Below are positions 14,846-53,393 of a stretch of DNA of 64,000 nucleotides, piece by piece. Each line of letters begins with the position of its first letter. Position 1 is the stretch's first letter. The notes under the pieces are model-generated. The model worked only from the letters and a program-made list of their open reading frames with translations. It had not been told where the DNA came from and made no database searches. Origin of the DNA: Streptomyces ipomoeae 91-03 (lineage in GTDB: Bacteria > Actinomycetota > Actinomycetes > Streptomycetales > Streptomycetaceae); contig NZ_AEJC01000173.1 of the NCBI RefSeq assembly GCF_000317595.1, positions 1 to 64,000 of the forward strand, given 5' to 3'. The position numbers and the translations under genes are program-made.

Positions 14846-14899
14846 ACGAACAACCCGCACCCGGCAAACACAGAAGCCCCCACGGCGATCAGCCCACGC

Positions 14900-17032
14900 T
14901 CACGTGGGCCGCTGAAGCACGACAAGACTCCGGTCCACCAGAGCCACCCGCTCACCGGCCTGCACCTTCGCCCCGTCCTCAGGCACCGCATCCGCGGCCC
15001 CCGTGTCCACCACCACCTGCCACTGCCGCCCATGGTTCACAGGGACCACGAACTCGAGCGGCGCCGCCGACGCGTTCACCATCAACAGAAACGAGTCATC
15101 GGTGATCCGCTCGCCGCGCGAACCCGGCTCGGAGATCGCGTTCCCGTTGAGAAACACACTCAACGCCCCGGCCTGCGTGGAATCCCAGTCCCGCTGAGTC
15201 ATCTCCCGCCCCTCGGGCGTGAACCAGGCGATGTCGGACAGCTCGTCATGAGTCCCCTCGACGGGCCGCCCATGAAAGAACCGCCTCCGCCGAAACACCG
15301 GGTGATCCTTCCGCAGCCACACCATCGCGCGCGTGAAGTCCAACAGATCCCCGAACACCTCGCCGTCGCCGTCACTGTCGCCGCCGGCGGGCCACGGCAC
15401 CCAGGACAACTCGTTGTCCTGGCAGTACGCGTTGTTGTTGCCGTGCTGAGTGCGCGCGAACTCGTCCCCATGGCTGAGCATCGGCACCCCCTGCGACAGC
15501 ATCAGCGTGGCGACGAAGTTCCGCATCTGCCGGACCCGCAGCTCCATGACCCCGGGGTCGTCGGTCTCGCCCTCGACGCCGCAGTTCCAGGACCGGTTGT
15601 GACTCTCCCCGTCCCGGTTGTCCTCCCCGTTCGCATCGTTGTGCTTGCCGTTGTAGGAGACGAGGTCCCGCAGGGTGAAGCCGTCGTGGCAGGTCACGAA
15701 GTTGATGGAGGCGAGCGGGCGGCGGCCGTCGTCCTGGTAGAGGTCGGAGGAGCCGGTGAGCCGTGACGCGAACTCCGCCAGCGTGCGCGGCTCGCCGCGC
15801 CACAGGTCCCGTACGGTGTCCCGGTACTTACCGTTCCACTCGGTCCACAGCGGCGGGAAGTTGCCCACCTGGTAGCCGCCCTCGCCGACGTCCCAGGGCT
15901 CGGCGATCAGTTTCACCTGGGAGACGACCGGGTCCTGCTGGACGAGGTCGAAGAACGACGACAGCCGGTCGACCTCGTGGAACTGCCGGGCGAGCGTGGC
16001 CGCGAGGTCGAAGCGGAACCCGTCGACGTGCATCTCGGTGACCCAGTACCGCAGCGAGTCCATGATCAGCTGGAGGACGTGCGGGGACCGCATGAGCAGC
16101 GAGTTCCCCGTGCCCGTGGTGTCCATGTAGTAACGCGGGTCGTTCGTGAGCCGGTAGTACGACGGATTGTCGAGGCCCTTGAACGACAGCGTCGGCCCCA
16201 GATGGTTGCCCTCGGCCGTGTGGTTGTAGACCACGTCGAGGATGACCTCGATCCCGGCCTCGTGCAGCGCCCGTACCGCCGACTTGAACTCCAGGACCTG
16301 CTGCCCGCGGTCGCCCCAGGAGGCGTACGCGTTGTGCGGGGCGAAGAAGCCGATCGTGTTGTAGCCCCAGTAGTTGCTGAGGCCCATGTCGACCAGACGA
16401 TGGTCGTTCACGAACTGGTGTACGGGCATCAGTTCCAGCGCGGTGACACCCAGCTCGGTGAGGTGTTCGATGATCGCCGGGTGGGCGAGCGCCGCGTAGG
16501 TGCCGCGCAGCTCCTCGGGGAGGCCGGGGTGCCGCATGGTGAGGCCCTTGACGTGGGCCTCGTAGATCACCGTGTGGTGGTACTCGGTGCGGGGCCGCCG
16601 GTCGTCGCCCCAGTCGAAGTAGGGGTTCACCACGACCGAGGTCATCATGTGGGGCGCCGAGTCCAGGTCGTTGCGCTTGTCGGGCGCCCCGAAGTGATAG
16701 CCGTACACCTCCTCGCCCCACCTCACGGAGCCACTGATGGCACGCGCGTACGGGTCGAGGAGCAGCTTCGCGGAGTTGCAGCGCAGCCCGCGCTCCGGCG
16801 CGTACGGGCCGTGCACCCGGAAGCCGTACCGCTGCCCGGGCATCACCCCGGGCAGATACGCGTGCCGTACGAACGCGTCCGTCTCGCGCAGTTCCACCGC
16901 CGTCTCGGAGCCGTCGTCGTCCAGCAGACACAGCTCGACTCGGTCGGCGGCCTCCGAGAAGACCGCGAAGTTGGTACCGGCGCCGTCGTACGTCGCGCCG
17001 AGCGGATACGCCTGTCCAGGCCAGACCTGCAT
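14900..17032 (-). CDS. glgX: Glycogen debranching enzyme (isoamylase type, TreX/GlgX)
   Basis: 710 aa from the ATG at 17032 (MQVWPGQAYPLGATYDGAGTNF split at the CBM48 domain). Hydrolyses alpha-1,6 branches of glycogen or limit dextrins, feeding linear chains to TreY/TreZ. N-terminal CBM48 (about 8-110), then GH13_11 barrel: VILDVVYNHTAEG, VDGFRFDLAATL (nucleophile Asp), LIAEPWDVGEGGYQVGNFPP (acid/base Glu; shown to 20 residues), and NFVTCHDGFTL. First gene of the leftward treX-treY set and divergent from the SAV2148-type gene across about 340 bp. Upstream site is only GAGAG, so it may be weakly translated. Confidence 0.94.
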   Translation of the reverse strand: MQVWPGQAYPLGATYDGAGTNFAVFSEAADRVELCLLDDDGSETAVELRETDAFVRHAYLPGVMPGQRYGFRVHGPYAPERGLRCNSAKLLLDPYARAISGSVRWGEEVYGYHFGAPDKRNDLDSAPHMMTSVVVNPYFDWGDDRRPRTEYHHTVIYEAHVKGLTMRHPGLPEELRGTYAALAHPAIIEHLTELGVTALELMPVHQFVNDHRLVDMGLSNYWGYNTIGFFAPHNAYASWGDRGQQVLEFKSAVRALHEAGIEVILDVVYNHTAEGNHLGPTLSFKGLDNPSYYRLTNDPRYYMDTTGTGNSLLMRSPHVLQLIMDSLRYWVTEMHVDGFRFDLAATLARQFHEVDRLSSFFDLVQQDPVVSQVKLIAEPWDVGEGGYQVGNFPPLWTEWNGKYRDTVRDLWRGEPRTLAEFASRLTGSSDLYQDDGRRPLASINFVTCHDGFTLRDLVSYNGKHNDANGEDNRDGESHNRSWNCGVEGETDDPGVMELRVRQMRNFVATLMLSQGVPMLSHGDEFARTQHGNNNAYCQDNELSWVPWPAGGDSDGDGEVFGDLLDFTRAMVWLRKDHPVFRRRRFFHGRPVEGTHDELSDIAWFTPEGREMTQRDWDSTQAGALSVFLNGNAISEPGSRGERITDDSFLLMVNASAAPLEFVVPVNHGRQWQVVVDTGAADAVPEDGAKVQAGERVALVDRSLVVLQRPT

Positions 17033-33599: not shown

Positions 33600-34934
33600 T
33601 CAGAAGTCCCACCCGTCGTCCTCGGCCTCGTCCTTGACGGGCTCCGGAGAGGCGAACGACTCACCGACCATGCCGGCGGTCAGCGTCGTACCGTCCGCCG
33701 GGTCGATCAGGATGAACGAGCCGGTGCGGCGGGAGTCGGCGTACGAGTCGACCGGCAGCGCCTCGGCGGTGCGGATCTTCACTCGGCCGATGTCGTTGGC
33801 GACGAGCCGTCCCGGGTGCGGGTGCAGGGACAGGTCGTCGAGCGTGAGCCGGGACGGGATGTCCTTGACGATCGCCTTGACCGTGCGCGTGCCGTGCTTG
33901 AGCAGGACCCGGTGGCCCACGGTGAGCGGCTGGTCGGCGACGTGGCAGACGGTCGCCTCGATGTCCTGCGTGGTCGGGGGCGCGTCCTTGCTGGGCACGA
34001 TCAGGTCGCCGCGCGAGATGTCGATGTCGTCCTCCAACAGGAGGGTCACCGACTGCGGGGTGTAGGCCACGTCGACCGGCTTGCCGAGCAGATCGATGCC
34101 GGCGACCTTCGTCGCACGACCGGAGGGGAGCACCGTCACCGGGTCGCCGACCCGGAACGTACCGGCCGCGATCTGGCCCGCGTACCCCCGGTAGTCCGGG
34201 TGCTCGGCGGTCTGCGGACGGATCACGTACTGCACGGGGAGACGGGCGTGGCAGTGCGCCAGGTCGTGGCTGACCGGGACCGACTCCAGGTGCTCCAGGA
34301 ACGTCGGGCCGCCGTACCAGTCCATGTTGGCGGACGGCTCCACCACGTTGTCACCGGCCAGCGCCGAGATCGGGATCGCGGTGATCTCGGGGACGCCCAG
34401 CTCGGTGGCGTACGCCGTGAACTCCTCGGCGATCCGCGCGAAGACCTGCTCCTCGTACCCGACGAGGTCCATCTTGTTGACGGCCAGCACCACGTGCGGG
34501 ACGCGCAGCAGCGCGGCGATCGCGGCGTGGCGGCGGGTCTGCTCGACGACCCCGTTGCGCGCGTCGACGAGGATCACCGTCAGCTCGGCGGTGGAGGCGC
34601 CCGTCACCATGTTGCGGGTGTACTGCACATGCCCGGGGGTGTCCGCGAGGATGAACCGGCGCTTGGCCGTGGCGAAGTAGCGGTACGCCACGTCGATGGT
34701 GATGCCCTGCTCCCGCTCGGCCCGCAGCCCGTCGGTGAGCAGCGCGAGGTCCGGGCCCTCCTGGCCACGGCCGACCGAGGCACGCTCGACGGCCTCCAGC
34801 TGGTCGGTGAGGACCGACTTGGAGTCGTGCAGCAGCCGGCCGACGAGCGTGGACTTGCCGTCGTCGACGGAACCGGCGGTGGCGAACCGCAGCAGGGTCG
34901 TGGCCGAGAGCTGCTCGGCGGTGATCGTGCTCAT
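33600..34934 (-). CDS. cysN: Sulfate adenylyltransferase subunit 1 (GTPase)
   Basis: 444 aa GTPase subunit of ATP sulfurylase; GTP hydrolysis drives formation of APS with CysD. G-motifs: GSVDDGKST (P-loop), DTPGHVQY (G3), NKMDLVG (G4), followed by EF-Tu-like beta-barrel domains. CysC is not fused to it (some bacteria have a CysNC fusion); instead cysC is a separate gene here. Two nt after cysD. Confidence 0.97.
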   Translation of the reverse strand: MSTITAEQLSATTLLRFATAGSVDDGKSTLVGRLLHDSKSVLTDQLEAVERASVGRGQEGPDLALLTDGLRAEREQGITIDVAYRYFATAKRRFILADTPGHVQYTRNMVTGASTAELTVILVDARNGVVEQTRRHAAIAALLRVPHVVLAVNKMDLVGYEEQVFARIAEEFTAYATELGVPEITAIPISALAGDNVVEPSANMDWYGGPTFLEHLESVPVSHDLAHCHARLPVQYVIRPQTAEHPDYRGYAGQIAAGTFRVGDPVTVLPSGRATKVAGIDLLGKPVDVAYTPQSVTLLLEDDIDISRGDLIVPSKDAPPTTQDIEATVCHVADQPLTVGHRVLLKHGTRTVKAIVKDIPSRLTLDDLSLHPHPGRLVANDIGRVKIRTAEALPVDSYADSRRTGSFILIDPADGTTLTAGMVGESFASPEPVKDEAEDDGWDF

Positions 34935-34936
34935 GC

Positions 34937-35875
34937 TTAGAAGTACCCCTCGCGCTTACGGTCTTCCATCGCGGCCTCGGACAGCTTGTCGTCGGCGCGG
35001 GTCGCGCCCCGCTCGGTCAGCCGGGAGGCGGCGATCTCGGCGATGACCTGGTCCAACGTCACGGCGTCGGAGTCGACGGCACCGGTGCAGGACATGTCAC
35101 CCACGGTCCGGTAGCGGATGAGGCGCTTCTCGACGGTCTCGCCGTCCTTCGGCCCGCCCCACTCACCGGCGGTCAGCCACATGCCACCCCGCTGGAACAC
35201 CTCACGCTCGTGGGCGAAGTAGATCTCCGGCAGCTCGATGCCCTCCCGGGCGATGTACTGCCACACGTCCAGCTCGGTCCAGTTGGACAGCGGGAACACA
35301 CGGACGTGCTCCCCGGGCGCGTGCCGGCCGTTGTAGAGCTGCCACAGCTCGGGGCGCTGGCGGCGCGGGTCCCACTGCGAGAACTCGTCACGCAGCGAGA
35401 ACACGCGTTCCTTGGCCCGGGCCTTCTCCTCGTCCCGGCGCCCGCCGCCGAAGACGGCGTCGAACTTCTCCGCCTGGATCTTCTCGGTCAGCGGCACGGT
35501 CTGCAGCGGGTTGCGGGTGCCGTCCGGGCGCTCCCGCAGCACACCCCGGTCGATGTAGTCCTGCACGGAGGCGACATGCAGCCGCAGGTTGTGCTTGGCC
35601 ACCGTACGGTCCCGGTACTCCAGCACCTCGGGGAAGTTGTGCCCGGTGTCGACGTGCAGCAGGGAGAAGGGGATCGCCGCCGGGGCGAAGGCCTTCAGCG
35701 CCAGGTGCAGCATGACGATGGAGTCCTTGCCGCCGGAGAAGAGGATCACCGGCCGTTCGAACTCGCCCGCCACCTCACGGAAGATATGGACCGCCTCGGA
35801 CTCCAGGGCGTCCAGGTGGGAGAGGGCGTACGGGGTGCCGGTCGTCTCGGACACGGCCGCGACGGTCGTCGTCAT
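34937..35875 (-). CDS. cysD: Sulfate adenylyltransferase subunit 2
   Basis: 312 aa catalytic subunit of ATP sulfurylase, making APS from sulfate and ATP. PP-loop VILFSGGKDSIVMLHLAL near residue 43, then LHVDTGHNFPEVLEYRD and the C-terminal VGDMSCTGAVDSDA and RKREGYF, all family marks. Start overlaps the cysC stop (ATGA). Confidence 0.98.
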   Translation of the reverse strand: MTTTVAAVSETTGTPYALSHLDALESEAVHIFREVAGEFERPVILFSGGKDSIVMLHLALKAFAPAAIPFSLLHVDTGHNFPEVLEYRDRTVAKHNLRLHVASVQDYIDRGVLRERPDGTRNPLQTVPLTEKIQAEKFDAVFGGGRRDEEKARAKERVFSLRDEFSQWDPRRQRPELWQLYNGRHAPGEHVRVFPLSNWTELDVWQYIAREGIELPEIYFAHEREVFQRGGMWLTAGEWGGPKDGETVEKRLIRYRTVGDMSCTGAVDSDAVTLDQVIAEIAASRLTERGATRADDKLSEAAMEDRKREGYF

Positions 35876-36408
35876 GCCAGACCCCTCTCCACGAGCAGCT
35901 TGTGGACCAGCGCCGCGGACTCCCGCACCGTCTGGTCCTGCGACTCGATCCGCAGATCGGGGTTCACGGGAGCCTCGTACGGGTCGTCCACACCGGTCAG
36001 CCCCGAGATCTCACCGGCGGCCTGCTTGGCGTACAGCCCCTTCACATCGCGTACGGAGCACACCTCGACCGGCGTGGCCACATGGACCTCCAGGTACGCG
36101 GCGCCGCTCGCGTCGTGCCGCTTGCGCACGGCCTCGCGGCTGTCGGCGTACGGCGCGATGACCGGCACCAGCGCCTTGACGCCGTTACGGGCGAGCATGT
36201 CGGCGAGGAAGCCGATGCGCTGCACATTGGTGTTCCGGTCGGCGCGGCTGAAGCCGAGGTCGGCGGTGAGGAACTCACGGATCTCGTCGCCGTCGAGCAC
36301 CTCGACGAGGTGGCCCTCCTCGCGCAGTCGGCCCGCGAGCTCGTACGCGATGGTGGTCTTGCCGGCGCTCGGCAGACCCGTGAGCCAGACGGTGGCTCCG
36401 GTCGTCAC
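35872..36408 (-). CDS. cysC: Adenylyl-sulfate kinase
   Basis: 178 aa from GTG with AGGAGAA at 5 nt. Phosphorylates APS to PAPS. P-loop WLTGLPSAGKTTIAYEL, then DGDEIREFL, GFSRADRNTN and GLYAKQAAGEI. Because the next upstream gene is an APS reductase, PAPS made here is probably for sulfation or other use rather than required for assimilation; inference. Confidence 0.97.
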   Translation of the reverse strand: MTTGATVWLTGLPSAGKTTIAYELAGRLREEGHLVEVLDGDEIREFLTADLGFSRADRNTNVQRIGFLADMLARNGVKALVPVIAPYADSREAVRKRHDASGAAYLEVHVATPVEVCSVRDVKGLYAKQAAGEISGLTGVDDPYEAPVNPDLRIESQDQTVRESAALVHKLLVERGLA

Positions 36409-36443
36409 TTGGTTCTCCTGGTTCGTCACAGGCACGGTCGTGG

Positions 36444-37205
36444 TCACAGGTGCAGCCCGCACTCGGTCTTGGCGGTACCGGCCCAGCGGCCGGCGCGCGC
36501 GTCCTCGCCCGGGGCGACGCGGCGGGTGCAGGGGGCGCAGCCCACGGACGTGTAGCCGTCCATGAGCAGGGGGTTGGTGAGCACTCCGTGCTCGGCGACG
36601 TAGGCGTCCACGTCGTCCTGCGTCCAACGCGCTATCGGGGAGATCTTGACCTTGCAGCGCTTCTCGTCCCAGCCGACCACCGGTGTGCCCGCCCGGCTCT
36701 CGGACTCGTCGCGGCGCAGGCCGGTCGCCCACGCGTCGAACCGGGTCAGGCCCTGTTCGAGCGGCTTGACCTTGCGCAGGAAGCAGCACAGGTCCGGGTC
36801 ACGGTCGTGCAGCTTGGGACCGTACTCGGCATCCTGCTCGGCGACCGTCTGACGCGGGGTGAGTGTGATGACGTTCACATCCATCACGGCCTCGACCGCG
36901 TCCCGGGTGCCGATCGTCTCGGGGAAGTGGTAGCCGGTGTCGAGGAACACCACGTCCACGCCGGGCATGACCCGGGAGGCGAGGTGCGCGACCACGGCGT
37001 CCTCCATCGAGGAGGTCACACAGAAACGCTTGCCGAAGGTGTCCACGGCCCACTGGATGATCTCCAGCGCCGAGGCGTCCTCCAGATCACGTCCGGCCTG
37101 CTCGGCGAGCGCCTTGAGCTCGGCGCGCTCGGCGGCCTGCGGGTCGTCGGTGTTGTCGTCGGTCAGCGGTGCAGATGTATCGCCATCTGCCTGAACGGTC
37201 GTCAT
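36444..37205 (-). CDS. cysH: Adenylyl-sulfate (APS) reductase, [4Fe-4S] type
   Basis: 253 aa. Reduces APS to sulfite with thioredoxin electrons. The cluster-binding Cys pairs DLCCFLRK and SVGCAPCTRR identify the APS-using class; the C-terminal KTECGLHL provides the catalytic Cys. GGAGGGG site before the ATG. ATG overlaps the stop of the 59-aa gene upstream (ATGA). Confidence 0.96.
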   Translation of the reverse strand: MTTVQADGDTSAPLTDDNTDDPQAAERAELKALAEQAGRDLEDASALEIIQWAVDTFGKRFCVTSSMEDAVVAHLASRVMPGVDVVFLDTGYHFPETIGTRDAVEAVMDVNVITLTPRQTVAEQDAEYGPKLHDRDPDLCCFLRKVKPLEQGLTRFDAWATGLRRDESESRAGTPVVGWDEKRCKVKISPIARWTQDDVDAYVAEHGVLTNPLLMDGYTSVGCAPCTRRVAPGEDARAGRWAGTAKTECGLHL

Positions 37206-37381
37206 ATGTGATCCCCTCCGCTGTCGGCTCGTCGCAGCCCCCGGGCCAGCAGCCCGAGGAACTTCAACTGGAAGGCTCGATTGCAGGCTCCGCATTCCCA
37301 CGCGCCATGTCCCTGGTCATTCGGGCGCAGGTCCTCGTCACCGCAGTAGGGGCAGTAGAAAGGCGCTGCTCGCTCGCTCAT
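37202..37381 (-). CDS. 59-aa double-CxxC (zinc-ribbon-like) protein of the sulfur operon
   Basis: A small gene joined on both sides by ATGA overlaps: its ATG overlaps the sulfite reductase stop, and its TGA overlaps the cysH ATG. Residues 7-14 read PFYCPYCG and 28-33 WECGACN, giving two CxxC pairs, followed by FQLKFLGLLARGLRR and a short tail. Could bind zinc or an Fe-S cluster and act as an electron carrier or chaperone for the sulfite/APS reductases; that is inference from the tight coupling. Similar small proteins occur at this place in other Streptomyces, as far as I recall. Confidence 0.85.
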   Translation of the reverse strand: MSERAAPFYCPYCGDEDLRPNDQGHGAWECGACNRAFQLKFLGLLARGLRRADSGGDHI

Positions 37382-39069
37382 GACAGGGCCTCCTCACTGG
37401 CCCGGGCGACCCAGGTGGCGAACCGCTCGCCGTCCTCGCGCTCCTCCTGGAACCGCTTGAGGACGCGCTCGACGTAGTCGGGCAGTTCCTCGGAAGTGAC
37501 CTTCAGGCCACGCACCTTGCGGCCGAACCCGGCCTCCAGGCCGAGCGCGCCGCCCAGGTGCACCTGGAAGCCCTCGACCTGCTCGCCCTTGTCGTTGAGG
37601 ACCAACTGGCCCTTGAGACCGATGTCCGCCACCTGGATACGAGCACAGGCGTTCGGGCAGCCATTGATGTTGATGGTGATCGGCTCGTCGAAGTCCGGGA
37701 TACGGCGCTCCAGTTCGTCGATCAGCGAGGCGCCGCGGGCCTTGGTCTCGACGATGGCGAGCTTGCAGTACTCGATGCCGGTGCAGGCCATCGTGCCGCG
37801 CCGGAACGGGGACGGGTTCACCGTGAGGTCCAGCGCCTCCAGGCCCGCGACGAGCGAGTCGACCTGGTCCTCGGTGACGTCGAGCACGATCATCTTCTGC
37901 TCGACGGTGGTACGGACCCGGCCCGAGCCGTGCGCCTCGGCGAGCTCGGCGATCTTGGTGAGTGTGGTGCCGTCGACCCGGCCCACGCGGGGGGCGAAGC
38001 CGACGTAGTACCGGCCGTCGTTCTGCCGGTGCACACCCACGTGGTCGCGCCAACGCTCCACCGGCTGGTCCGGGGCGGGGCCGTCGATCAGCTTCCGCTT
38101 GAGGTACTCGTCCTCCAGCACCTGACGGAACTTCTCGACACCCCAGTCGGCGAGCAGGAACTTCAGGCGGGCTCGGGTGCGCAGGCGGCGGTAGCCGTAG
38201 TCACGGAAGATCGAGATGACGCCCTCGTAGACGTCCGGGACCTCGTCCAGCGGCACCCAGGCGCCCAGCCGCTGCCCGATCTTGGGGTTGGTCGACAGCC
38301 CGCCGCCGACCCAGACGTCGAAGCCGGGCCCGTGCTCGGGGTGACGGACACCGACGAAGGCGATGTCGTTGATCTCGTGCGCCACGTCCAGCAGCGGGGA
38401 GCCGGAGATCGCGGACTTGAACTTGCGGGGCAGGTTGGAGAAGGCCTTGTTGCCGATGATCCGCCGGTGGATCTCGTCCATCGCGGGCGTGCCGTCGATG
38501 ATCTCGTCCGCGGCGATACCGGCGACGGGTGAGCCGATGATCACACGGGGGGTGTCACCGCAGGCCTCCGTCGTGGACAGCCCCACGGCCTCCAGCCGCT
38601 CCCAGATCTCGGGCACGTCCTCGACCCGGATCCAGTGGTACTGGACGTTCTGCCGGTCGGTGATGTCGGCCGTGCCCCGGGCGAACTCCTGCGAGATCTC
38701 GCCGATCACCCGCAGCTGCTGGGTGGTGAGCCGACCGCCGTCGATGCGCACCCGCAGCATGAAGTACTCGTCGTCCAGCTCCTCCGGCTCCAGGATCGCG
38801 GTCTTGCCGCCGTCGATCCCGGGCTTGCGCTGGGTGTACAGCCCCCACCAGCGCATCCGGCCACGCAGGTCGTTGGGGTCGATCGAGTCGAAGCCGCGCT
38901 TCGAGTAGATCGTCTCAATGCGTGTCCGCACATTGAGACCGTCATCGTCCTTCTTGAACTGCTCGTTGCCGTTCAGCGGGGTGAAGTGTCCCGCGGCCCA
39001 CTGTCCTTCGCCACGGTGACGGCTCACCTTGCGGCGGGGCGTGGCGGAGTTCTGCGGGGTGGCGGCCAT
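37378..39069 (-). CDS. sirA: Ferredoxin-dependent assimilatory sulfite reductase
   Basis: 563 aa from the ATG with GAAGGA 8 nt upstream. Reduces sulfite to sulfide with six electrons. Two ferredoxin-like plus two siroheme/4Fe-4S repeats: DRQNVQYHWIRVEDVPEIW, the cluster ligands ACTGIEYCKLA (about residue 426) and NGCPNACAR (about 470). Single siroheme protein of the NirA/SirA type; neighbouring APS reductase and chelatase genes make sulfite, not nitrite, the substrate. First structural gene of the operon. Confidence 0.95.
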   Translation of the reverse strand: MAATPQNSATPRRKVSRHRGEGQWAAGHFTPLNGNEQFKKDDDGLNVRTRIETIYSKRGFDSIDPNDLRGRMRWWGLYTQRKPGIDGGKTAILEPEELDDEYFMLRVRIDGGRLTTQQLRVIGEISQEFARGTADITDRQNVQYHWIRVEDVPEIWERLEAVGLSTTEACGDTPRVIIGSPVAGIAADEIIDGTPAMDEIHRRIIGNKAFSNLPRKFKSAISGSPLLDVAHEINDIAFVGVRHPEHGPGFDVWVGGGLSTNPKIGQRLGAWVPLDEVPDVYEGVISIFRDYGYRRLRTRARLKFLLADWGVEKFRQVLEDEYLKRKLIDGPAPDQPVERWRDHVGVHRQNDGRYYVGFAPRVGRVDGTTLTKIAELAEAHGSGRVRTTVEQKMIVLDVTEDQVDSLVAGLEALDLTVNPSPFRRGTMACTGIEYCKLAIVETKARGASLIDELERRIPDFDEPITININGCPNACARIQVADIGLKGQLVLNDKGEQVEGFQVHLGGALGLEAGFGRKVRGLKVTSEELPDYVERVLKRFQEEREDGERFATWVARASEEALS

Positions 39070-45205: not shown

Positions 45206-46213
45206 TCAGACCGGCGCCGCCAGCTCCCCCGTTCCCAGCTCGCCGGTGCCCAGCTCGCCCGCGCCCAGGAGCGCCTCCCCGTACTGCTCCGACGCCCACC
45301 CCGGCCGGTAGACGGTGTCGAGGTAACGCTCGCCGAGGTCGGGGGCCACGGCGACCGCCATGACATCGGGGGTGCCGTTGCGGTTCAGCCAGTCGACGGC
45401 GCCGCTGACGACCGTGCCGGTGGAGCCGCCGAACAGGAAGCCGCGCCGGGCCATGAGATGGCAGGCCCGTACGGTGTCGGCCTCCTCCACGCGTACGACG
45501 TCGTCCACGTACGACGGGTCGAGCAGCGGGGGTGTCACGCTGGTGCCGAGGCCCGGGATCATCCGGCGGCCCGGAACCCCGCCGAAGGCCACCGAGCCCG
45601 CGCTGTCCACCGCCACGATCAGCACCCGGCGCCGCCGTTCCCAGAACCACTGGGCGCAGCCCATCAGCGTCCCCGAGGTGCCGACCCCCACGAACAGCAC
45701 GTCGAGACGCGGGAACTGCCGGGCGATGGCGGGCGCGGTGGTGCGGTAGTGCGCCCGCCAGTTGGCCTGGTTGGTGTACTGGTCCAGCCACACATACCGC
45801 TCGTCGGCGGCGCACAGCGCGCGGACGTACGCGATCCGGGCGCCCAGGAAGCCGCCGATCGGGTCCGGCTCGGTGATGACGTGCACCCGGCTGTCCAGCG
45901 CCTCCATCAGCCGCTTGGTCGCCGGATTGCAGCGGGCGTCGGTCACGCACAGAAACCGGTAGCCCCGGCTCGCCGCGATCATGCTCAGCGCGACGCCCAG
46001 GTTCCCGGACGAGGACTCGACAAGGGTCGAGCCCGGCCTGAGCCGCCCGTCCCGTTCGGCGGCCCGCACCATCTCGGTCGCGGCCTTGAGCTTGATCGAG
46101 CCGGCGAAGTTGAAGCCCTCGCACTTCAGGAAGAGCTTGTGGCCGACGACCTGGCGCAGATCGACGTACAGCTCCTCCTCGTTGAAGTCCGTGGGAACGG
46201 ATATGACTGGCAC
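45206..46213 (-). CDS. sbnA: SbnA-like PLP enzyme for 2,3-diaminopropionate synthesis
   Basis: 335 aa from GTG with AGGGGGG at 6 nt. Cysteine-synthase fold; K41 in NFAGSIKLKAA is the PLP Lys, and ESSSGNLGVALS is the phosphate/substrate loop. SbnA joins O-phospho-L-serine and L-glutamate to give N-(1-amino-1-carboxyl-2-ethyl)-glutamate (ACEGA), which SbnB cleaves to L-Dap. The pairing with the adjacent sbnB-type gene is the main evidence against an ordinary cysteine synthase. The C-terminus has a GTGEL triple repeat (ALLGAGELGTGELGTGEL). Confidence 0.88.
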   Translation of the reverse strand: MPVISVPTDFNEEELYVDLRQVVGHKLFLKCEGFNFAGSIKLKAATEMVRAAERDGRLRPGSTLVESSSGNLGVALSMIAASRGYRFLCVTDARCNPATKRLMEALDSRVHVITEPDPIGGFLGARIAYVRALCAADERYVWLDQYTNQANWRAHYRTTAPAIARQFPRLDVLFVGVGTSGTLMGCAQWFWERRRRVLIVAVDSAGSVAFGGVPGRRMIPGLGTSVTPPLLDPSYVDDVVRVEEADTVRACHLMARRGFLFGGSTGTVVSGAVDWLNRNGTPDVMAVAVAPDLGERYLDTVYRPGWASEQYGEALLGAGELGTGELGTGELAAPV

Positions 46214-46259
46214 TGCGGCCCCCCTGGTTGTGCAATGTCGTGCGGCTGCGTCCGGCCGG

Positions 46260-47306
46260 TCAGCCGTACCGGCGCAGCTCGTGGAAGAAGTCGTCCACGA
46301 TCCGCAGCCCGCCCCCGCGGGCCACCTCGTCGTGGACATAACCGCCGACCGCGAGGTCGAGGACCCCGAGGCCGAAGGGCGAGAAGACCACCGGACGGTC
46401 CGCCGGCACGGTCGCCCGGCCGATGAGCACGTCGTGGAGCGTTCCGTCGAGGAAGTCCCGTCCGCCGGTGAGCTGTTCGGCCAGATGCGGCGACGTCGCG
46501 GCCTTCAGACAGTGCTCGACGTCGTCGACGAAGTTCGCCGACGCCAGCAGCACCTCGGGCGCGAGATCGCGCAGCGACACATGCAGCACCAGCGGGTTGT
46601 GCGCGAACCACTTCGGCTCGTGGACATGCGGCTCCGCCGCGATCGTCGCGAAGACCAGCAGGTCGCTCGCCCGGATCACGTCCTCGGCGGTGTCGTACAC
46701 CGTCACCCGCCCGCTCGCCTCGGACCGCTCCAGGTACCCCCGGAACCCGGCCGCGCTGTCGGCGGACAGGTCGTGCAGCCCGATCTCCTCGAACGACCAG
46801 CCGGTCGCGGCGAGGAAGGTGTGGATGTAGCGGGCGATCAGGCCCGTGCCGAGGAAGCCGACGCGGGTCGGGCGGGCACAGGACGGCGAACGGCCCGCGC
46901 TCAGCCGGTCCGCCGCCAGCGCCGCAGACGCCGCCGTCCGTGTCGCGCTGATGACCGAGGCCTCCAGGCACGCGAACGGATAGCCGGTGGTGTGGTCGTT
47001 GAGGATCAGCACGGCGGAGGCGCGGGGGAGCCCGCTCGCCGTGTTCTCCGGGAAGCTGGAGATCCACTTCAGGCCGTCCACCTGGAACTTCCCGCCCAGC
47101 GAGGCGGGCAGCGCGATGATCCGCGACGACGGACGGTCCGGGAAGCGGAGGAAGTACGACGGCGGGTTGACGGTGTCGCCCGTGTCACCGGCGCCGTGCA
47201 ACAGATAGGCGGACTCGACCAGTTCGACGATCTCCCGTTCCCGGCCCCTGAGGGCCTGCCGCACCTGGGCGCCGGAGATCACGGCGAAACCCGGAACCTC
47301 GGTCAT
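46260..47306 (-). CDS. sbnB: SbnB-like NAD-dependent ACEGA dehydrogenase (Dap-forming)
   Basis: 348 aa, ornithine cyclodeaminase/mu-crystallin family: YFLRFPDRPSSRIIALPASL, GLKWISSFPENTASGLPRAS and the NAD Rossmann motif VGFLGTGLIARYIH near residue 148. The SbnB branch oxidatively splits ACEGA into L-2,3-diaminopropionate and 2-oxoglutarate. Interestingly, the 2-oxoglutarate produced is cosubstrate of the neighbouring dioxygenase. ATG overlaps the dioxygenase stop (ATGA). Confidence 0.9.
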   Translation of the reverse strand: MTEVPGFAVISGAQVRQALRGREREIVELVESAYLLHGAGDTGDTVNPPSYFLRFPDRPSSRIIALPASLGGKFQVDGLKWISSFPENTASGLPRASAVLILNDHTTGYPFACLEASVISATRTAASAALAADRLSAGRSPSCARPTRVGFLGTGLIARYIHTFLAATGWSFEEIGLHDLSADSAAGFRGYLERSEASGRVTVYDTAEDVIRASDLLVFATIAAEPHVHEPKWFAHNPLVLHVSLRDLAPEVLLASANFVDDVEHCLKAATSPHLAEQLTGGRDFLDGTLHDVLIGRATVPADRPVVFSPFGLGVLDLAVGGYVHDEVARGGGLRIVDDFFHELRRYG

Positions 47307-48430
47307 ACGAAGCTCACCTCGTCCTTCGTGTCGGAGTCCTTGCCGTCGGAGTTCTTCACACCGGAGTTCCTCGCGCCGGAGCTCTTCGTGTCCGAGCTCT
47401 TCGCGCCGCTGCTCAGCCGGACCGGATCGGCCAGGCCCACCAGCACCTCGCGCGCCCCCTCGAAGGGCTCACGGCTGTGCGCGCAGCGGATGTTGTCGAC
47501 GAGCATCAGGTCACCGGGCCGCCACGGCTCGCGGACCGTGTGGGCCTCGTAGACCTCGTTGAGCGCCTGGACGACGTCCTCGCCGATGGGGTCGCCGTCG
47601 CCGTAACGGGTGTTGAAGGGCAGCCCGTCGGGGCCGTACAGGTCCACCAGGTACTCGCGCACCTCGGGGTCCATGGTCCACTCGCTCAGGAACGCGATCT
47701 GGTTGAACCAGCAGCGGCGGCCGGTCACCGGATGGCGCAGTACGGCGGAGCGCCGCTGCCGGGTGCGCAGGGAGCCGTCCGGCTGCCACGCGAAGTCGAC
47801 GGCGTGCGCCCGGCAGTACGCCTCGACGACGGTCCGGTCGTCGGTGCCGAAGGCCTCGGCGACCGACGCGCCGATCTCCTCGTTGTACGAGCGGGTCAGC
47901 AGCCAGCCGTCCCGCTCGAACCGCTTGGTCAACGCGGGCGGCAGCGCGGCGAGTACGGCCTCGGCGTCGGCGACCCCCGTCGCCCCGCCCTCCTCGGCGG
48001 CCCGCAGACAGGCGAAGAGCATCAGGCCGGGGAACTCCACCGCGTAGCTCAGTTCGTGATGTGTGCACATCGGTTGGCTCGACGGCCACGCCGTCGAGGA
48101 GTACACGCCGTCCGCGTATGTCCGCCGGGGTGCGAAGGCTTCCCTCTCGCTCATCAGCTTGTCGGTCAACTGCCGGAAGACCGCGCCGACTTGGTTCGCG
48201 TCACGCAGACCGAGCCCCCGTACGAGGACCGCGCCGTGCTCGGCGACGACCAGCCGCAGGGTGTCCCGGTGTTCCGCCGCCCAGTGGACCGGATCGGTGC
48301 CGGGGGAGACGGGCAGCAGCGCGGGCCTGGCGGGGGAGAGGTCCAGGTCCGGCAGCGGCAGAGGAGCCGGGGAGGCCTCCGGGGCCTTGCGGCGGCGGTT
48401 CGCGAAGCCGCGGCGGCTGAGGAAGCTCAT
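47303..48430 (-). CDS. Fe(II)/2-oxoglutarate-dependent dioxygenase (TauD/SyrP-like)
   Basis: 375 aa. Facial-triad ligands H124-x-E126 (MCTHHELSY) and H318 (DNIRCAHSREPFEGARE), with Arg327 set to bind 2-oxoglutarate. HxE instead of HxD is seen in SyrP-type hydroxylases that act on amino acids, often while bound to an NRPS carrier. Predicted to hydroxylate Dap, free or on the A-T protein encoded next door; not proven. An N-terminal 40-residue Arg/Pro tail and a C-terminal Ser/Lys/Asp repeat tail (about 340-375, SSGAKSSDTKSSGARNSGVK) flank the enzyme core. Start overlaps the NRPS stop (ATGA). Confidence 0.86.
   Translation of the reverse strand: MSFLSRRGFANRRRKAPEASPAPLPLPDLDLSPARPALLPVSPGTDPVHWAAEHRDTLRLVVAEHGAVLVRGLGLRDANQVGAVFRQLTDKLMSEREAFAPRRTYADGVYSSTAWPSSQPMCTHHELSYAVEFPGLMLFACLRAAEEGGATGVADAEAVLAALPPALTKRFERDGWLLTRSYNEEIGASVAEAFGTDDRTVVEAYCRAHAVDFAWQPDGSLRTRQRRSAVLRHPVTGRRCWFNQIAFLSEWTMDPEVREYLVDLYGPDGLPFNTRYGDGDPIGEDVVQALNEVYEAHTVREPWRPGDLMLVDNIRCAHSREPFEGAREVLVGLADPVRLSSGAKSSDTKSSGARNSGVKNSDGKDSDTKDEVSFV
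47320..47410 (-). repeat. 15-bp degenerate coding repeat at the dioxygenase C-terminus
   Basis: Repeated gag(t/c)tc-tt-c... units on the plus strand (seen as ggagttcttcacacc, ggagttcctcgcgcc, ggagctcttcgtgtc) encode the SS/NS-G/D-x-K/R tail. Downstream gene ends in this operon are also repetitive. Confidence 0.6.
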
Positions 48431-50871
48431 GACGACGTCCTCCGTTCGTCGATCAGCCCCGCCAGATCGGAGAGCACCGGATGCCGGGCCACGTCCTTGA
48501 GGGACACCGCCCGGTCCAGGGCGACGGCGAGCTTCACCGCCGACAGCGAGGTGCCGCCCCGGTCGAAGAAGTGGTCGTGGCGGCCGATCCGCTCCCGTGA
48601 CACCCCGAGGACGGCGGCCCACGCCACGGCCAGCCGCTCCTCGGTCGGTGTGACCGGCGATGCCCCCGACTCCCCGTCCACGGCGTCGAGCCGCTCGGCC
48701 AGCGCGGTGAGCGCCCGCCGGTCGGTCTTGCCGTTGGCGGTCAGCGGCAGGCTCTCGCGCCAGTGGAACACCGACGGCACCATGTACGCCGGCAGCGAGG
48801 CGGCCAGCCGGTCCCGCAGCACGTCACCGGAGAGCGGCCGACCGGAGTGGAAGGCCACCAGATGGGTGCCCTCGGCGACCACGACCGCGGCGTCGCGTAC
48901 GCCCTCCACCCGCAGCAGCGCGTTCTCCACCTCGCCGATCTCGATCCGGAAGCCCCGCACCTTGACCTGGGTGTCCCGGCGGCCCAGGAACTCCAGCTTG
49001 CCGTCGGGCCGCCAGCGCCCCCGGTCACCGCTGCGGTAGAGCCGTTCGCCGGGCCGGTACGGGTCGGTGGTGAACGCCTGCCGGGTGCGCTCGGGATCGT
49101 TGACGTACCCCCGGCCGACGCACACCCCGGAGAAGACGATCTCCCCCGGGGCGCCGAGCGGCACGAGGGAGAGGTGTTCGTCGACGACGTACACGCGGAC
49201 GTTGCCGACCGGCCGGCCGAGCGGTACCCGGTCCCCCTCCGGAGCCCGGTGCATCACCTCGTGGTTGGTGTCGTCCGAGGTCTCCGTCAGCCCGTAGGCG
49301 TTGACCAGCGGAATCGCCGGCTCGATGGCGAACCAGCGCTCGACCGGCTCCCGCTTCAGCGCCTCCCCGGTGACGGACACCCGGCGCAGATCGGGCAGTG
49401 CGCGCGGGCGCTGTTCGAGGTGGGCGAGGACCGCTTCGAGATACGACGGCACCACCTGGAGGACGTTCACCCGGCCGTCCGCGATCCGGTCGACGAACCG
49501 CTCGACGTCCAGGATCACCTCCTGCTCCACAAGGAGGGTCCGGCCGCCGGCGAGGGGTCCGGCCAGCAGCTGCCACAGGGAGATGTCGAAGCACTGCGGC
49601 GCGGTCTGCGCGACCACGTCCCCCTCGCCGATGCCGAGGTCGTCGAGCTTGGCGTGGATGTGGTTGACCATCCCGGCGTGCTCGCACATCGCGCCCTTGG
49701 GCTCGCCCGTCGAACCGGAGGTGAAGTAGATGTACGCGAGCCGGTCCGGCCCGATCTCCATGCCGAGGTCGGAGTCGGGGTGCGCCTCGTCGTACGCGGC
49801 CCGGACGAGCAGCCGCTGTACGCCGCTCAGCCCGGACAGGGCCTCGTCGAGCGTGGCGGTGCTGCCCTCCTCGGTGAGCACCAGCTCGCATCCGGCGCGG
49901 CTGAGGGTGCGGGCGATGCGCTCGGCCGGGAAGTGCGGCTCGATGGGCAGATACACCCCGCCGGCCTTGAACACCGCGAGGACGGCTGCCATCCAGTCCA
50001 GGTTCCGCTCGGTCACGACCGCTACGACGCCCTCGCGGCCGAGGCCCCGCACCAGCAGGGCCCGGCTGAGCTGGTTGGCGCGGGAGTTGAGTTCGCGGTA
50101 CGTCCACCGCCGGTCCCCGTGCACGGCCGCGACCGCGTCCGGATGGGCCACGACCCGCTGCTCGAACAGCTCATGCACGCGACGGTCGGGCAGTTCGCGG
50201 TACGGCCCCGCCAACCCGTCGAGCTGGAACCGGAGTTCGTCGTCGGACAACAGGCTCTGCCGCCCGTACTCGGCGTCCGGGTCGACGGCGAGCGCGGTGA
50301 GCGCGGTGACGTGGTACCCGGCGACGCGGGCGGCGCCGCTCTTGTCCAACACGTCGGTGCGGTACCGCAGCCGCAGCGCGGGCCCGTCGTCGCGGTACAC
50401 CAGCCCGACCCGCAGGACCACGTCCTCGTCGAGGTCGCCGTCCGCCCCGGTCGTGTCGAGCACGGTCTCGAACGGCGGCTCGTCCAGGCCGAGTTCGCGC
50501 CGCAGGGCGTCGACCGGGAAGTCGGCGTACGCCAGCGCGTCCGAGGTGACGCGCTGCGCCCGCGCCAGCAGGTCCCGCCAGGTGTCGCCGGGCGCGGTCG
50601 TGATCCGGCACGGCAGCAGCCGTCCGTCCTCCGACCAGCCGGTGGTGACCTCGCGCTCACCCGACAGCGCGGCGAGCACCTTCGCATGCGCCGCGAGCAG
50701 CACCCGCGCACCGTCAGGGGCCGTCGACAGCCCGCCCGGCAGCGCCACTTCGTAGGCGGCGACCCCCTTCACCGGATCGGCGCTCCACCGGGGTATCCCG
50801 GTCCGCCCCCCGGCGGTCAGCACCCCGTGCCAGAACGTGCGGGCAGCGGTGCCCGTCTCCCACTGATCCAT
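48427..50871 (-). CDS. NRPS module: partial condensation domain, adenylation, thiolation
   Basis: 814 aa from ATG after GGGGGGAG. Residues 1-200 match only the C-terminal half of a condensation domain (YADFPVDALRRELGL ... LRLRYRTDVLDKSGAARVAGYH) and lack HHxxxDG, so it cannot form bonds in the usual way. Adenylation domain about 235-720: A3 YFTSGSTGEPKG (383-393), A5 NAYGLTE, A7 YRSGDRGRW, A8 GRRDTQVKVRGFRIEIGEVE, A10 Lys715. Thiolation domain 740-814 with FFDRGGTSL, pantetheine Ser775. By alignment with GrsA I read pocket residues D-I-W-Q-S-T-A-D-D-K; the two Asp near the end suit a basic side chain such as Dap. No thioesterase. Overlaps the dioxygenase (ATGA). Confidence 0.93.
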   Translation of the reverse strand: MDQWETGTAARTFWHGVLTAGGRTGIPRWSADPVKGVAAYEVALPGGLSTAPDGARVLLAAHAKVLAALSGEREVTTGWSEDGRLLPCRITTAPGDTWRDLLARAQRVTSDALAYADFPVDALRRELGLDEPPFETVLDTTGADGDLDEDVVLRVGLVYRDDGPALRLRYRTDVLDKSGAARVAGYHVTALTALAVDPDAEYGRQSLLSDDELRFQLDGLAGPYRELPDRRVHELFEQRVVAHPDAVAAVHGDRRWTYRELNSRANQLSRALLVRGLGREGVVAVVTERNLDWMAAVLAVFKAGGVYLPIEPHFPAERIARTLSRAGCELVLTEEGSTATLDEALSGLSGVQRLLVRAAYDEAHPDSDLGMEIGPDRLAYIYFTSGSTGEPKGAMCEHAGMVNHIHAKLDDLGIGEGDVVAQTAPQCFDISLWQLLAGPLAGGRTLLVEQEVILDVERFVDRIADGRVNVLQVVPSYLEAVLAHLEQRPRALPDLRRVSVTGEALKREPVERWFAIEPAIPLVNAYGLTETSDDTNHEVMHRAPEGDRVPLGRPVGNVRVYVVDEHLSLVPLGAPGEIVFSGVCVGRGYVNDPERTRQAFTTDPYRPGERLYRSGDRGRWRPDGKLEFLGRRDTQVKVRGFRIEIGEVENALLRVEGVRDAAVVVAEGTHLVAFHSGRPLSGDVLRDRLAASLPAYMVPSVFHWRESLPLTANGKTDRRALTALAERLDAVDGESGASPVTPTEERLAVAWAAVLGVSRERIGRHDHFFDRGGTSLSAVKLAVALDRAVSLKDVARHPVLSDLAGLIDERRTSS

Positions 50872-50885
50872 CGTCTCCCCCCGAT

Positions 50886-53393
50886 TCACCGTTCTCCGGT
50901 GGTCTCCGTCGCCGGGTTCCCGCCCCACCGCGCGTGCGGCGGCATCTCCTCGCCCTTCATCAGGAAGGAGTCGGGAGCCAGCTCGGCGCCGTCACCCATG
51001 GCCACGCCGTAGTGGACGAGCGCCCCGACGCCGAGCGTGCAGCCCGCGCCGATCGTGATGTGGTCGGACTTGAAGGTGCCGTCCTCCTGCGAATGGGCCT
51101 GGATCTTGCTGCCCGCGCCCAGCGTGCAGTCGTCCCCGATCGCCGTCAGCGTCCGCTCGGTGATGTACACCCCGTCGTCGAGGACCCGCCGGCCGATCCG
51201 CACCCCCATCAGCCGCCAGACGACGTTCTTGTACGGGGTGCCGTTCAGGATGTTCAGGTATGTGTCCGAGAGCTTCCACAGCCGTTCCTGCCGCCAGAAG
51301 ACCGGGTCGTAGATGGAGCACAGCTGCGGCTGAAGCGGCCGGAACCGGGTCAGGCACCGCTCCACCAGCACGAAGTACGCCACCGAGAACACCAGCGAGG
51401 CCGGCGGAACCGCGGCGAGCGCGAGCAGTCCGACGCCGTCGTGGTGGCCGTACAGGTCATAGGCCGCGAAGCCGAGCACGGTGAGCCCGAAGGTGTGCAG
51501 CCAGCGCAGGAACAGGAACAGCCCCATCGACCGCAGGTTGTAACGGTTCTTCGCGGACAGTCGCCGGCGCAGCTCCTCACCCTCGCGCAGATGGTCGAAG
51601 CGGGTGTCACGCTCCACCGAGCGGGGGATCTCGAACGGCGGCGAGCCGAGCAGCCCGACCCCTTCACGGATCTCCCCGTCCAGTGGGACCAGCACCTTCG
51701 TCGCCAGCAGACAGTTCTCGCCGGTCCGGCCGCCGACCGGGTAGGCGATGAAGTTGCCGAGGAAGTTGCGCCCGCCGATCGCCGTCCGGGACACCCGGAA
51801 CGACGTACCGGAGTACTCGGCGTTCATGATCGACAGCCCGTCCGCGACCATCGTGCCGCTGCCGACCCGGGCCAGGAACGGCGTCTCGTGCCGCACACTC
51901 GTACCGAAGTTGGACCCGGTCTGCTCGACGCGGCCGAGGTCGTACCCGAGGGGCCTGAGGTACGGGACGATGTACGAGCTGTCGCCGCACAGCCACGTGA
52001 AGAACTTGATGTTGGTCAGCCGGGCGATCGCGCGGTGCACCGAGTAGTGGAAGCCGTACAGCGGATACGTCCGGTCCGGCCGGACCAGCGGACGCAGCAG
52101 CCGGGGCACGCCCAGCACGGCGACGGCGCCGACGACGATCGTGCCGAGGAACAGGGCCAGCGACAGCACCAGCGCCTCGACGTAGAAGCGCGCCGAGGTG
52201 ATGTGCCGCGACGCGGGGTCGAGCAGCACCTCCAGCTCCGGCGCGGCGGTGAGCAGCAGATACGCGCCGCCGATGGACAGCGGCACGTACAGCAGGAACG
52301 CCTGGACCAGGGTGGCGAGCCCGTACCCCGCCCGCCGGAGCCCGCCGCACCGGGCGGGGCCGACGCGTACATGGTCGACGTCCGTGCGCCGGGCCGGGGA
52401 GCCGTGCCAGCTCTGCGCCGACGGGACCGTGTCGCCGGTGCGCAGAGCGGAGGCGTGGCCGAGCTGGGAGCCGTCGCCCATGGCGGTGCCGATGTCGAGC
52501 ACGGTGTGCTCACCGACGAACACCTCCCGGCCGAGGGTGACGGGACCGGTCCGAATCCGCCCGGCGCGCGCCCGGTAGCACAGGAAGTAGGAGTCCTTGC
52601 GGATCACCGTGCCCGCGCCGATCGTCAGCAGATCGGTGCAGACCGGCACATGACGGCTCAGGATCGTCACACCCGGGCCGATCCGGGCGCCCAGTGCCCG
52701 CAGGTACAGCACGTACAGCGGGTTGCCGACGAACAGGACCATCGGGCTGGTGCGCAGCAGCGCCTTGACGGCCCAGAACCGCAGATACGCCGGGCCCCAC
52801 ACCGGGAAGTCCACGGGCTTCCACCGCCCGACCAGCAGCCACTTGGCGACCACCGGCAGCGCGCACAGCGCGACCAGGCCGAGCCCGCCGAAGACCACCG
52901 ACCGCAGATAGACCTCGACGACGCCGGAGCCGTCCGCGATCCACTCGTACCCCCGTGCGGAGACGGACGCGACCAGCAGGCAGTACCCGGCGAAGAGGAG
53001 CAGCTGCAGCGCCCCGCACAGCATGTACCGGGGTGTGCTGCCCGGTGCCGGCGGCTCGGCGGGCACCGGTGGGGCGGCCGGCGGCGCGGGTGCCTCGGCC
53101 AGCGCGGCGGCGAGACCGCGGAGCGTGGGGTGGCCGTAGACGTCCCGTATCGACACCGAGGGCAGATCGGGGTGCTTCCTGACCCGGGCGCAGAAATGGG
53201 CCATCGTCAGGGAGTTCGCGCCCAGATCGTCGAAGAAGTGACTGTCGACGGGCACATGTTCGATATGCGCGACGTCGCCCAGAACTTCGGCGAGCAGTCG
53301 CTCGGTGGCGGTGTACGATTCCGCCGCGTCCGGCTCGGCCCCCTGGACCTCACCTGGTTTTTCCGCCATGTGTCGTGGCGCTGGCAATGTCAT
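50886..53393 (-). CDS. Carrier domain fused to NRPS terminal membrane/hexapeptide domain (Pls C-terminus-like)
   Basis: 835 aa from ATG with GGAGA at 7 nt. Residues 25-100: peptidyl-carrier domain, HFFDDLGANSL, Ser61 for pantetheine. Residues 103-120: Pro/Ala linker. Then six predicted membrane helices (about 123-144, 161-188, 356-382, 406-428, 623-646, 653-677) alternating with three soluble left-handed-beta-helix (hexapeptide) segments (about 235-330, 500-590, 735-830). This is the architecture of the C-terminal half of epsilon-poly-L-lysine synthetase, where the soluble parts form the peptide bonds. Here the A domain is on another protein, a split version. Stop overlaps the NRPS Shine-Dalgarno region. 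First gene of the operon. Confidence 0.9.
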   Translation of the reverse strand: MTLPAPRHMAEKPGEVQGAEPDAAESYTATERLLAEVLGDVAHIEHVPVDSHFFDDLGANSLTMAHFCARVRKHPDLPSVSIRDVYGHPTLRGLAAALAEAPAPPAAPPVPAEPPAPGSTPRYMLCGALQLLLFAGYCLLVASVSARGYEWIADGSGVVEVYLRSVVFGGLGLVALCALPVVAKWLLVGRWKPVDFPVWGPAYLRFWAVKALLRTSPMVLFVGNPLYVLYLRALGARIGPGVTILSRHVPVCTDLLTIGAGTVIRKDSYFLCYRARAGRIRTGPVTLGREVFVGEHTVLDIGTAMGDGSQLGHASALRTGDTVPSAQSWHGSPARRTDVDHVRVGPARCGGLRRAGYGLATLVQAFLLYVPLSIGGAYLLLTAAPELEVLLDPASRHITSARFYVEALVLSLALFLGTIVVGAVAVLGVPRLLRPLVRPDRTYPLYGFHYSVHRAIARLTNIKFFTWLCGDSSYIVPYLRPLGYDLGRVEQTGSNFGTSVRHETPFLARVGSGTMVADGLSIMNAEYSGTSFRVSRTAIGGRNFLGNFIAYPVGGRTGENCLLATKVLVPLDGEIREGVGLLGSPPFEIPRSVERDTRFDHLREGEELRRRLSAKNRYNLRSMGLFLFLRWLHTFGLTVLGFAAYDLYGHHDGVGLLALAAVPPASLVFSVAYFVLVERCLTRFRPLQPQLCSIYDPVFWRQERLWKLSDTYLNILNGTPYKNVVWRLMGVRIGRRVLDDGVYITERTLTAIGDDCTLGAGSKIQAHSQEDGTFKSDHITIGAGCTLGVGALVHYGVAMGDGAELAPDSFLMKGEEMPPHARWGGNPATETTGER

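Follow-up and report, generated by a model that had tools for sequence, protein, structure and literature searches.

In this study, a block of five genes was analysed in a 64,000-nucleotide stretch of DNA from Streptomyces ipomoeae 91-03 (contig NZ_AEJC01000173.1, positions 1 to 64,000; referred to as the window). The block, at 45206-53393, encodes SbnA and SbnB of L-2,3-diaminopropionate (Dap) biosynthesis, an Fe(II)/2-oxoglutarate (2OG) dioxygenase of the TauD family (gene tauD), a nonribosomal peptide synthetase (NRPS) protein with an adenylation (A) and a carrier (T) domain (the A-T protein), and a membrane protein, T-Pls, composed of a carrier and a terminal domain of the Pls/PosA type. 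The block is probably a split, membrane-bound and self-contained relative of the poly(diamino acid) synthetases (Pls, PosA and the poly-Dap synthetase), making a Dap-based isopeptide that is oxidised by the Fe/2OG enzyme on the carrier or on the chain. It is a more tentative proposal that the product represents an undescribed, widespread class of oxidised poly- or oligo-Dap, linked through the β-amines and with backbone carbons converted to N-acyl hemiaminals or dehydro-Dap, which would make it a reactive cationic polymer unlike plain poly-Dap. An earlier note on this DNA, made without database searches, knew of no described product for the gene set, and none was found in our search of an open-licence literature library, most subscription papers being outside its scope. 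Published work is cited below by PMC number from excerpts, and what is said of a paper applies to its excerpt.

Translation of the open reading frames (ORFs) placed all five genes on the minus strand, head to tail, the earlier note having described them as lying on one strand, and the encoded proteins were compared with Pfam and NCBIfam (Table 1). Two 4-base ATGA overlaps join the A-T gene to tauD (48427-48430) and tauD to sbnB (47303-47306), and T-Pls is separated from the A-T gene by 14 bases. The longest ORF of sbnA opens at ATG 46339 and would overlap sbnB by 80 bases; relatives of sbnA, such as that in locus L126 (see below), open with a stretch similar to that following GTG 46213, which is more likely the start.

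T-Pls scored 787.3 bits against TIGR02353, the Pls/PosA equivalog-domain model (curated cut-off 423.1). The match starts at residue 125, and a PF00550 carrier at residues 33-98 stands directly ahead of it. Ser61, His767, Ser768 and Glu770 were invariant in 25 of 25 aligned T-Pls sequences, fused relatives among them; by analogy with hexapeptide acyltransferases, we take His767 to be the candidate catalytic base. An AlphaFold2 model based on 25 sequences (mean predicted local distance difference test score [pLDDT] 79.6, predicted template-modelling score 0.82) displayed the carrier followed by three helix pairs, with a strand-rich unit after each. In a Foldseek search, this model hit hexapeptide acetyltransferases, including those for maltose and serine (best E 7.9e-6), which agrees with how PosA is described in PMC10522769. 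The membrane part is thus modelled as three pairs of helices and three domains resembling acyltransferases, and five of the six helices passed a simple hydropathy scan. A membrane terminal protein that combines a carrier of its own with a Pls-type domain, and the division of A domain and terminal domain between two proteins, had both been proposed in the earlier note and were borne out by the profile matches and the model. A second terminal domain was seen in the window's own genome (L009, G000:C555:13564-15597) in a 1322-amino-acid frame that also matches the AMP-binding family, which is the usual fused Pls arrangement.

The same protein could be read as a membrane acyltransferase that passes Dap or oxidised Dap from the carrier to a cell-surface or lipid acceptor, following a Dlt-like logic, so that the result would be a decorated envelope and no secreted polymer. 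We consider this quite unlikely: the terminal-domain model does resemble sugar and amino-acid O/N-acetyltransferases, but T-Pls passes the Pls/PosA model by a wide margin, and its fused family members polymerise diamino acids (PMC10522769, PMC4668381).

The A-T protein gave a PF00501 (AMP-binding) match of 265.3 bits (cut-off 29.9), plus a PF00550 carrier. Its first approximately 220 residues correspond to the C-lobe of a condensation (C) domain, here called C*, as indicated by homologue profiles and structure matches. PF00668 was detected at E ≤ 1 in 18 of 20 A-T homologues (best 2.3e-9), the window member being below the cut-off (E 0.011); the model of C* (pLDDT 82.4) matched C domains in a structure search (best E 1.7e-12, TMq 0.72). 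The HHxxxDG motif was not found in 95 aligned A-T stretches. Moreover, the A-T match begins after residue 100 in 12 of the 78 loci that carry all five genes, and therefore much of C* seems dispensable. Judged from profiles and model, C* is a dead structural relic of a C-lobe whose active site is missing. The single A-T module of the earlier note is accordingly right in its A domain and carrier and incomplete in that the protein is C*-A-T.

The 10-residue A-domain code was DIWQSTADDK in 71 of 95 rows, the window included, and DIWQSTTDDK in another 9, the other 15 being other or distant A domains; it contains two aspartates. L070 was left out of this table because of its short stretch, and distant A domains were kept though their columns are badly aligned. 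The carrier attachment residue, Ser775, was serine in 88 of the 95 rows, tryptophan in one and a gap in six, that is, serine in 88 of the 89 rows with a letter.

Profile search gave no thioesterase (TE) match in the window's A-T protein. Among the 78 five-gene loci of the order, a TE match was present in 35 and absent from 43. In a tree of 78 A domains (midpoint root only; L109 and L121 left out because their A match starts late), the TE lay inside the A-T frame in 26 rows, at the C-terminal end, and was PF00975 in L045, the one tested; the TE label needs 7 changes on this tree. All 74 rows from T-Pls loci fell on one side of a branch (support 98/91), and the other side held L057/L058 and L059/L061, all of which are devoid of T-Pls. 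The absence of C and TE domains, stated in the earlier note, holds for the window in that a complete C domain and a TE are lacking; as a defining trait of the system it was rejected, given the dead C-lobe, the variable TE and the 7 label changes.

Dap supply was well supported. SbnA scored 377.8 bits against TIGR03945 (cut-off 349.95) and SbnB 398.8 bits against TIGR03944 (cut-off 326.9), so that two adjacent genes both pass curated equivalog models, and the SbnA/SbnB route named in the earlier note stands. An SbnA homologue is also mentioned near the rapamycin cluster (PMC12298158).

The dioxygenase matched PF02668 (TauD) with 153.9 bits (cut-off 27), and its nearest solved structures were 1y0z and 9yut, followed by clavaminate synthase. 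In an alignment of the window protein with those of 77 loci (3 of 80 loci, with tauD matches of 250 residues or less, were left out), H124, E126 and H318 were conserved in all 78 rows and R327 in 77, in agreement with the HxE-type enzyme expected by the earlier note; by analogy with clavaminate synthase, these residues are presumably the metal ligands and the 2OG-binding arginine. A halogenase identity was rejected, since the carboxylate ligand E126 is retained.

The earlier note's suggestion of β-hydroxy-Dap fared less well. Hydroxylating Dap at either carbon places OH and NH2 on one carbon, which is a hemiaminal; as a free monomer β-hydroxy-Dap would be unstable, and it was discarded. The literature search returned no publication on hydroxylated Dap. 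Because a hydroxylated unit would be stable only with that nitrogen acylated, oxidation on the chain, on an acyl-Dap thioester, or in the form of desaturation is indicated; the chemistry suggests that oxidation after acylation of the β-amine, or desaturation, is easier to accept than free hydroxy-Dap.

Table 1. Features of the five-gene block in the window
Feature	Position	Strand	Evidence and remarks
T-Pls, carrier + Pls/PosA-type membrane terminal domain, 835 aa	50886..53393	-	TIGR02353, PF00550, AlphaFold2 model, Foldseek
T-Pls carrier (T) domain, residues about 29-99, attachment Ser61	53097..53309	-	PF00550; Ser61 invariant 25/25
Pls terminal domain, 3 x (transmembrane pair + left-handed β-helix), predicted	50910..53021	-	TIGR02353, alignment, model, Foldseek, hydropathy; candidate catalytic His767
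C*-A-T nonribosomal peptide synthetase module, 814 aa, without thioesterase	48427..50871	-	Profile matches
C*, remnant condensation-domain C-lobe, without N-lobe and HHxxxDG	50206..50871	-	PF00668 in homologues, model/structure matches
Adenylation domain, 10-residue code read DIWQSTADDK	48727..50166	-	PF00501
Carrier domain of A-T protein, Ser775	48451..48636	-	PF00550
TauD/clavaminate-synthase-like Fe(II)/2-oxoglutarate dioxygenase	47303..48430	-	PF02668, nearest structures, conserved ligands
SbnB, 2,3-diaminopropionate biosynthesis	46260..47306	-	TIGR03944 over cut-off
SbnA, 2,3-diaminopropionate biosynthesis	45206..46213	-	TIGR03945 over cut-off; gene call; start re-set to GTG 46213

Occurrence of the block was examined in 293 genomes of the Streptomyces order, with a threshold of E ≤ 1e-150 for the A-T protein (P0004); sample and threshold both bound the count. 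Matches were obtained in 102 of the 293 genomes, every one in the window's genus. From 101 genomes besides the window's own, 115 match places were fetched and their gene content was determined by tblastn. The complete set, which the earlier note had proposed to look for in other genomes, was present at 78 of these places in 75 genomes, which makes 76 of 293 with the window's genome. At 74 of the 78, the order was T-Pls, A-T, tauD, sbnB, sbnA on one strand; at the remaining 4, sbnA lay beyond T-Pls on the other side, with strands mixed. The count of 78 among these 115 is a minimum, as some loci (e.g., L171 and L177) are cut by contig ends; L235 and L236, at contig ends of one genome, are possibly halves of one gene. 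ORFs flanking the block in the window were matched in at most 5 of 20 compared loci and were thus rejected as block members. The grouping of the five genes is confirmed as real and held together far beyond chance, since their content recurs at 78 and their order at 74 of the 115 places and the flanking ORFs in so few loci. By eye, minus-strand neighbours at 33600-39069 of the window resemble sulfate assimilation genes (CysN/CysD-like starts).

A wider scan of 84,980 species genomes with P0005 as the query yielded 81 confirmed loci, of which 80 were kept. They include loci from Streptomyces, Actinacidiphila, Kibdelosporangium, Lentzea, Amycolatopsis, Pseudonocardia, Rhodococcus, Geodermatophilus and a metagenome-assembled genome (MAG) of Thermoleophilia. 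All five genes, with A-T identity above 50%, were found in 54 of the 80 (the gene order being that of the window in 46, while sbnA comes first in 8), several of them in other actinobacterial genera. The idea that the block is a rarity was dropped in view of the 76 genomes with a complete set.

These data also bear on the possibility of a decaying or silent cluster that makes no product. C* is a remnant, with the late start of the A-T match in 12 loci; L121 looks broken, its sbnA being in two frames; and L137 had no A-T match. Against this, the checked residues are intact (dioxygenase ligands, Ser775 of the A-T carrier, and Ser61 and His767 of T-Pls, in the numbers given above), and the five genes are kept together in 76 genomes. 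Furthermore, a proteomics study of S. scabies (PMC11479980) mentions a homologue of SbnB whose gene lies close to an NRPS gene and to a homologue of sbnA; this may be the same five-gene block. A relic is therefore highly improbable; gene content and order, conservation, the domain identities, and the residues of dioxygenase, carriers and terminal domain were all observed directly, as was the gene fusion in one MAG described next.

That the C*-A and T-Pls halves form one machine is most strongly indicated by L126, the Thermoleophilia MAG locus (10025-16785). A single frame of 1558 amino acids encodes T-Pls-C*-A with no second carrier, a permutation of the order A-T-Pls; it is followed by sbnB, with a 4-base overlap, and then by sbnA. 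No tauD match was detected in the 22.5-kb locus. Because the fusion has one carrier only, the carrier of T-Pls can apparently be served by C*-A and can be the sole carrier. If the product is an oxidised Dap polymer, the L126 fusion would be an unoxidised version of the same machine.

Locus variants were found as well. The 37 places short of the full set had A-T, tauD, sbnB and sbnA without T-Pls (12, and 3 more with TE), A-T with TE (7), A-T with tauD (5), A-T with TE and tauD (5), T-Pls with A-T (2), T-Pls with A-T and tauD (1), or A-T with tauD and sbnB (1); at L060, only sbnB passed the identity limits, and some of these contigs are cut. In L103, L104, L106, L113, L120 and L139, T-Pls and tauD occur with a free AMP ligase and a free carrier of about 90 residues in place of C*-A-T. 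The ligase is of an exosortase-type, acyl-CoA-ligase-like kind; in L106, whose ligase alone was tested, it exceeds the TIGR03098 cut-off. Neither sbnA nor sbnB was matched in 5 of these 6 loci. The sixth, L104, breaks off at its contig end in what seems to be the N-terminal 54 residues of an SbnA-like protein (76%), so a link of this variant to Dap is possible as well. In L120, a C*-like piece is encoded on its own (PF00668, E 1.9e-4). This variant, as well as four loci in which T-Pls had neither A-T nor tauD matched in its fetched flanks (L097, 10016-12640; L098, 10058-12526; L112; and L117, which is at a contig end with the upstream side unseen), would suit a membrane acyltransferase that decorates the envelope.

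A small Dap-derived product would be another outcome: a single modified Dap unit would be built by C*-A-T together with the dioxygenase, T-Pls would form one or two amide bonds, and TE, where present, would release the product, perhaps by cyclisation. This is consistent with the TE match seen in 35 of 78 five-gene loci, with loci in which A-T, tauD and SbnAB, without T-Pls, accompany a larger NRPS gene (L058, L208, L210, L214 and L216), and with dapdiamide, a small Dap product whose oxidation is carrier-tethered (PMC12451424). We nevertheless regard it as unlikely, as a second A domain and an ATP-grasp ligase are absent from the five conserved genes, Dap is the only visible monomer, and release must be independent of TE in the 43 loci without one.

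Loci with A-T relatives were also seen outside the block. In L059 and L061, A-T-TE relatives share the code of the window, as was checked for these two. The families tested in L061 included an SbnA-like PALP protein below cut-off, an argininosuccinate-lyase-like protein, an ATP-grasp protein and a GHMP kinase, which at a guess form a second Dap route. Similar sets, assigned by similarity, stand beside A-T-TE relatives in L223-L226, L228, L230, L232 and L234, the GHMP kinase being absent from the gene call of L228. SbnAB and an A-T relative, without T-Pls, occur in L057, L206, L207, L210, L211, L217, L221 and L222 beside a second dioxygenase resembling GntD, clavaminate synthase and VioC; its family was tested only in L057, the rest being assigned by similarity.

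Several observations weigh against a Dap polymerase. Substrate and product are predicted from the genes, and a match to the Pls "polymer" family by itself is no demonstration of polymerisation. At 26 of the 115 places, an A-T relative (48-61% identity; 73% in one, on a cut contig) occurred with tauD and/or sbnAB and no T-Pls match; the Dap/dioxygenase unit therefore has a role in other pathways too, and T-Pls is not bound to be a polymerase. The same A code occurs in L059, a locus of 19.9 kb that gave no match to sbnA, sbnB or tauD. The code positions were placed by eye from those of GrsA, and the literature search found no publication for this code. Relatives of tauD (E ≤ 1e-60) are present in 152 of the 293 genomes, compared with 102 for the A-T match, and tauD thus also occurs outside the block. 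TE, in the loci that have it, points to a release or editing step for which a plain polymerase has no need; T-Pls and tauD also occur with a different ligase, in the free-ligase variant; and the L126 fusion is known from one MAG contig.

With these points considered, we still favour a split Dap polymer synthetase, which could operate as follows. Dap would be formed by SbnA and SbnB and activated by the A domain of C*-A-T, which would load it onto its own carrier and/or, in trans, onto the carrier of T-Pls; C* would have no condensing role. The three β-helix units of T-Pls would then join Dap units via amide (isopeptide) bonds, with the carrier-bound unit as acyl donor. The dioxygenase would act on Dap as a carrier thioester or once acylated in the chain, likely giving an N-acyl hemiaminal or a dehydro-Dap unit, and the thioesterase, in relatives having one, would edit or release. 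The substrate of the A domain, the order of steps, the chain length, the site of oxidation and the product are what we infer here.

If this is true, a split synthetase with a tailoring oxidase would be a common NRPS-type locus without an assigned product, complete in roughly one in four genomes sampled from the order. With five genes in 8.2 kb, the block is small enough for transfer to a host. The permuted L126 fusion, with its sole carrier ahead of the terminal domain, offers a handle on carrier use by Pls-type enzymes that is separable from the A-T carrier.

Comparison with known systems showed both likeness and difference. By the rules of canonical NRPS modules, the window has neither the complete C domain with HHxxxDG of an elongation module nor the TE of a termination module. 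The SbnA/SbnB pair corresponds by curated models to the two-enzyme Dap route of staphyloferrin B, whose siderophore synthetases are not among the five window genes. The dapdiamide pathway uses amide ligases of the DdaG/DdaF kind, and profile search detected no such family among the five window proteins. DdaC and DdaD of that pathway provide a precedent for Fe/2OG oxidation of a Dap derivative tethered to the carrier of an A-T protein. The substrate bound in that case is fumaramoyl-Dap, and in the excerpt nothing equivalent to T-Pls belongs to the pathway (PMC12451424).

Among the polymers, a comb-like Dap polymer with Dap side units from an ε-polylysine-producing Streptomyces (Takehara 2021, as cited in PMC10522769) is similar to the proposed product, with no oxidation in the line citing it. 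The poly-Dap of Streptomyces albulus PD-1 is made by a fused Pls-like NRPS, PDAPs, encoded by one ORF of 4338 bp (PMC4668381). Like the window system, it uses Dap formed by homologues of cysteine synthase and ornithine cyclodeaminase (NjxA and NjxB), has A and carrier domains and a terminal domain of tandem C1-C3 units flanked by transmembrane segments, and is devoid of a classical C or TE domain. It differs in being a single ORF with Dap genes encoded elsewhere and, in the excerpt, no mention of a dioxygenase, whereas the window system is split and linked to its Dap genes and dioxygenase. The NjxA/NjxB pair is reported to be active with serine and ornithine, not O-phosphoserine and glutamate (PMC4668381). 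Since the accession numbers of NjxB (EXU92121) and an unassigned NRPS of the same strain (EXU92123) are two apart, the gene for NjxB could be part of another copy of this block; NjxA, numbered EXU92816, is far off, although the paper calls the two genes adjacent, a misfit with this idea (PMC4668381).

Pls (ε-poly-L-lysine) and PosA (δ-poly-L-ornithine) share with T-Pls the terminal-domain family, the carrier ahead of it, and a six-helix membrane part under three left-handed β-helices (PMC10522769); fused Pls-type enzymes are also described in PMC8117764 and PMC8949500. The A domain of such enzymes is in the same polypeptide. In the window, a separate protein bears it, together with a further carrier and the C-domain relic; Dap genes and an extra dioxygenase accompany this protein, and the two parts are joined only in L126, in permuted order. 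Natural poly(diamino acid)s are few, six having been counted before the one reported in PMC10522769, and the block is predicted to be a split, oxidase-equipped variant of their synthetases, those described in the excerpts being fused.

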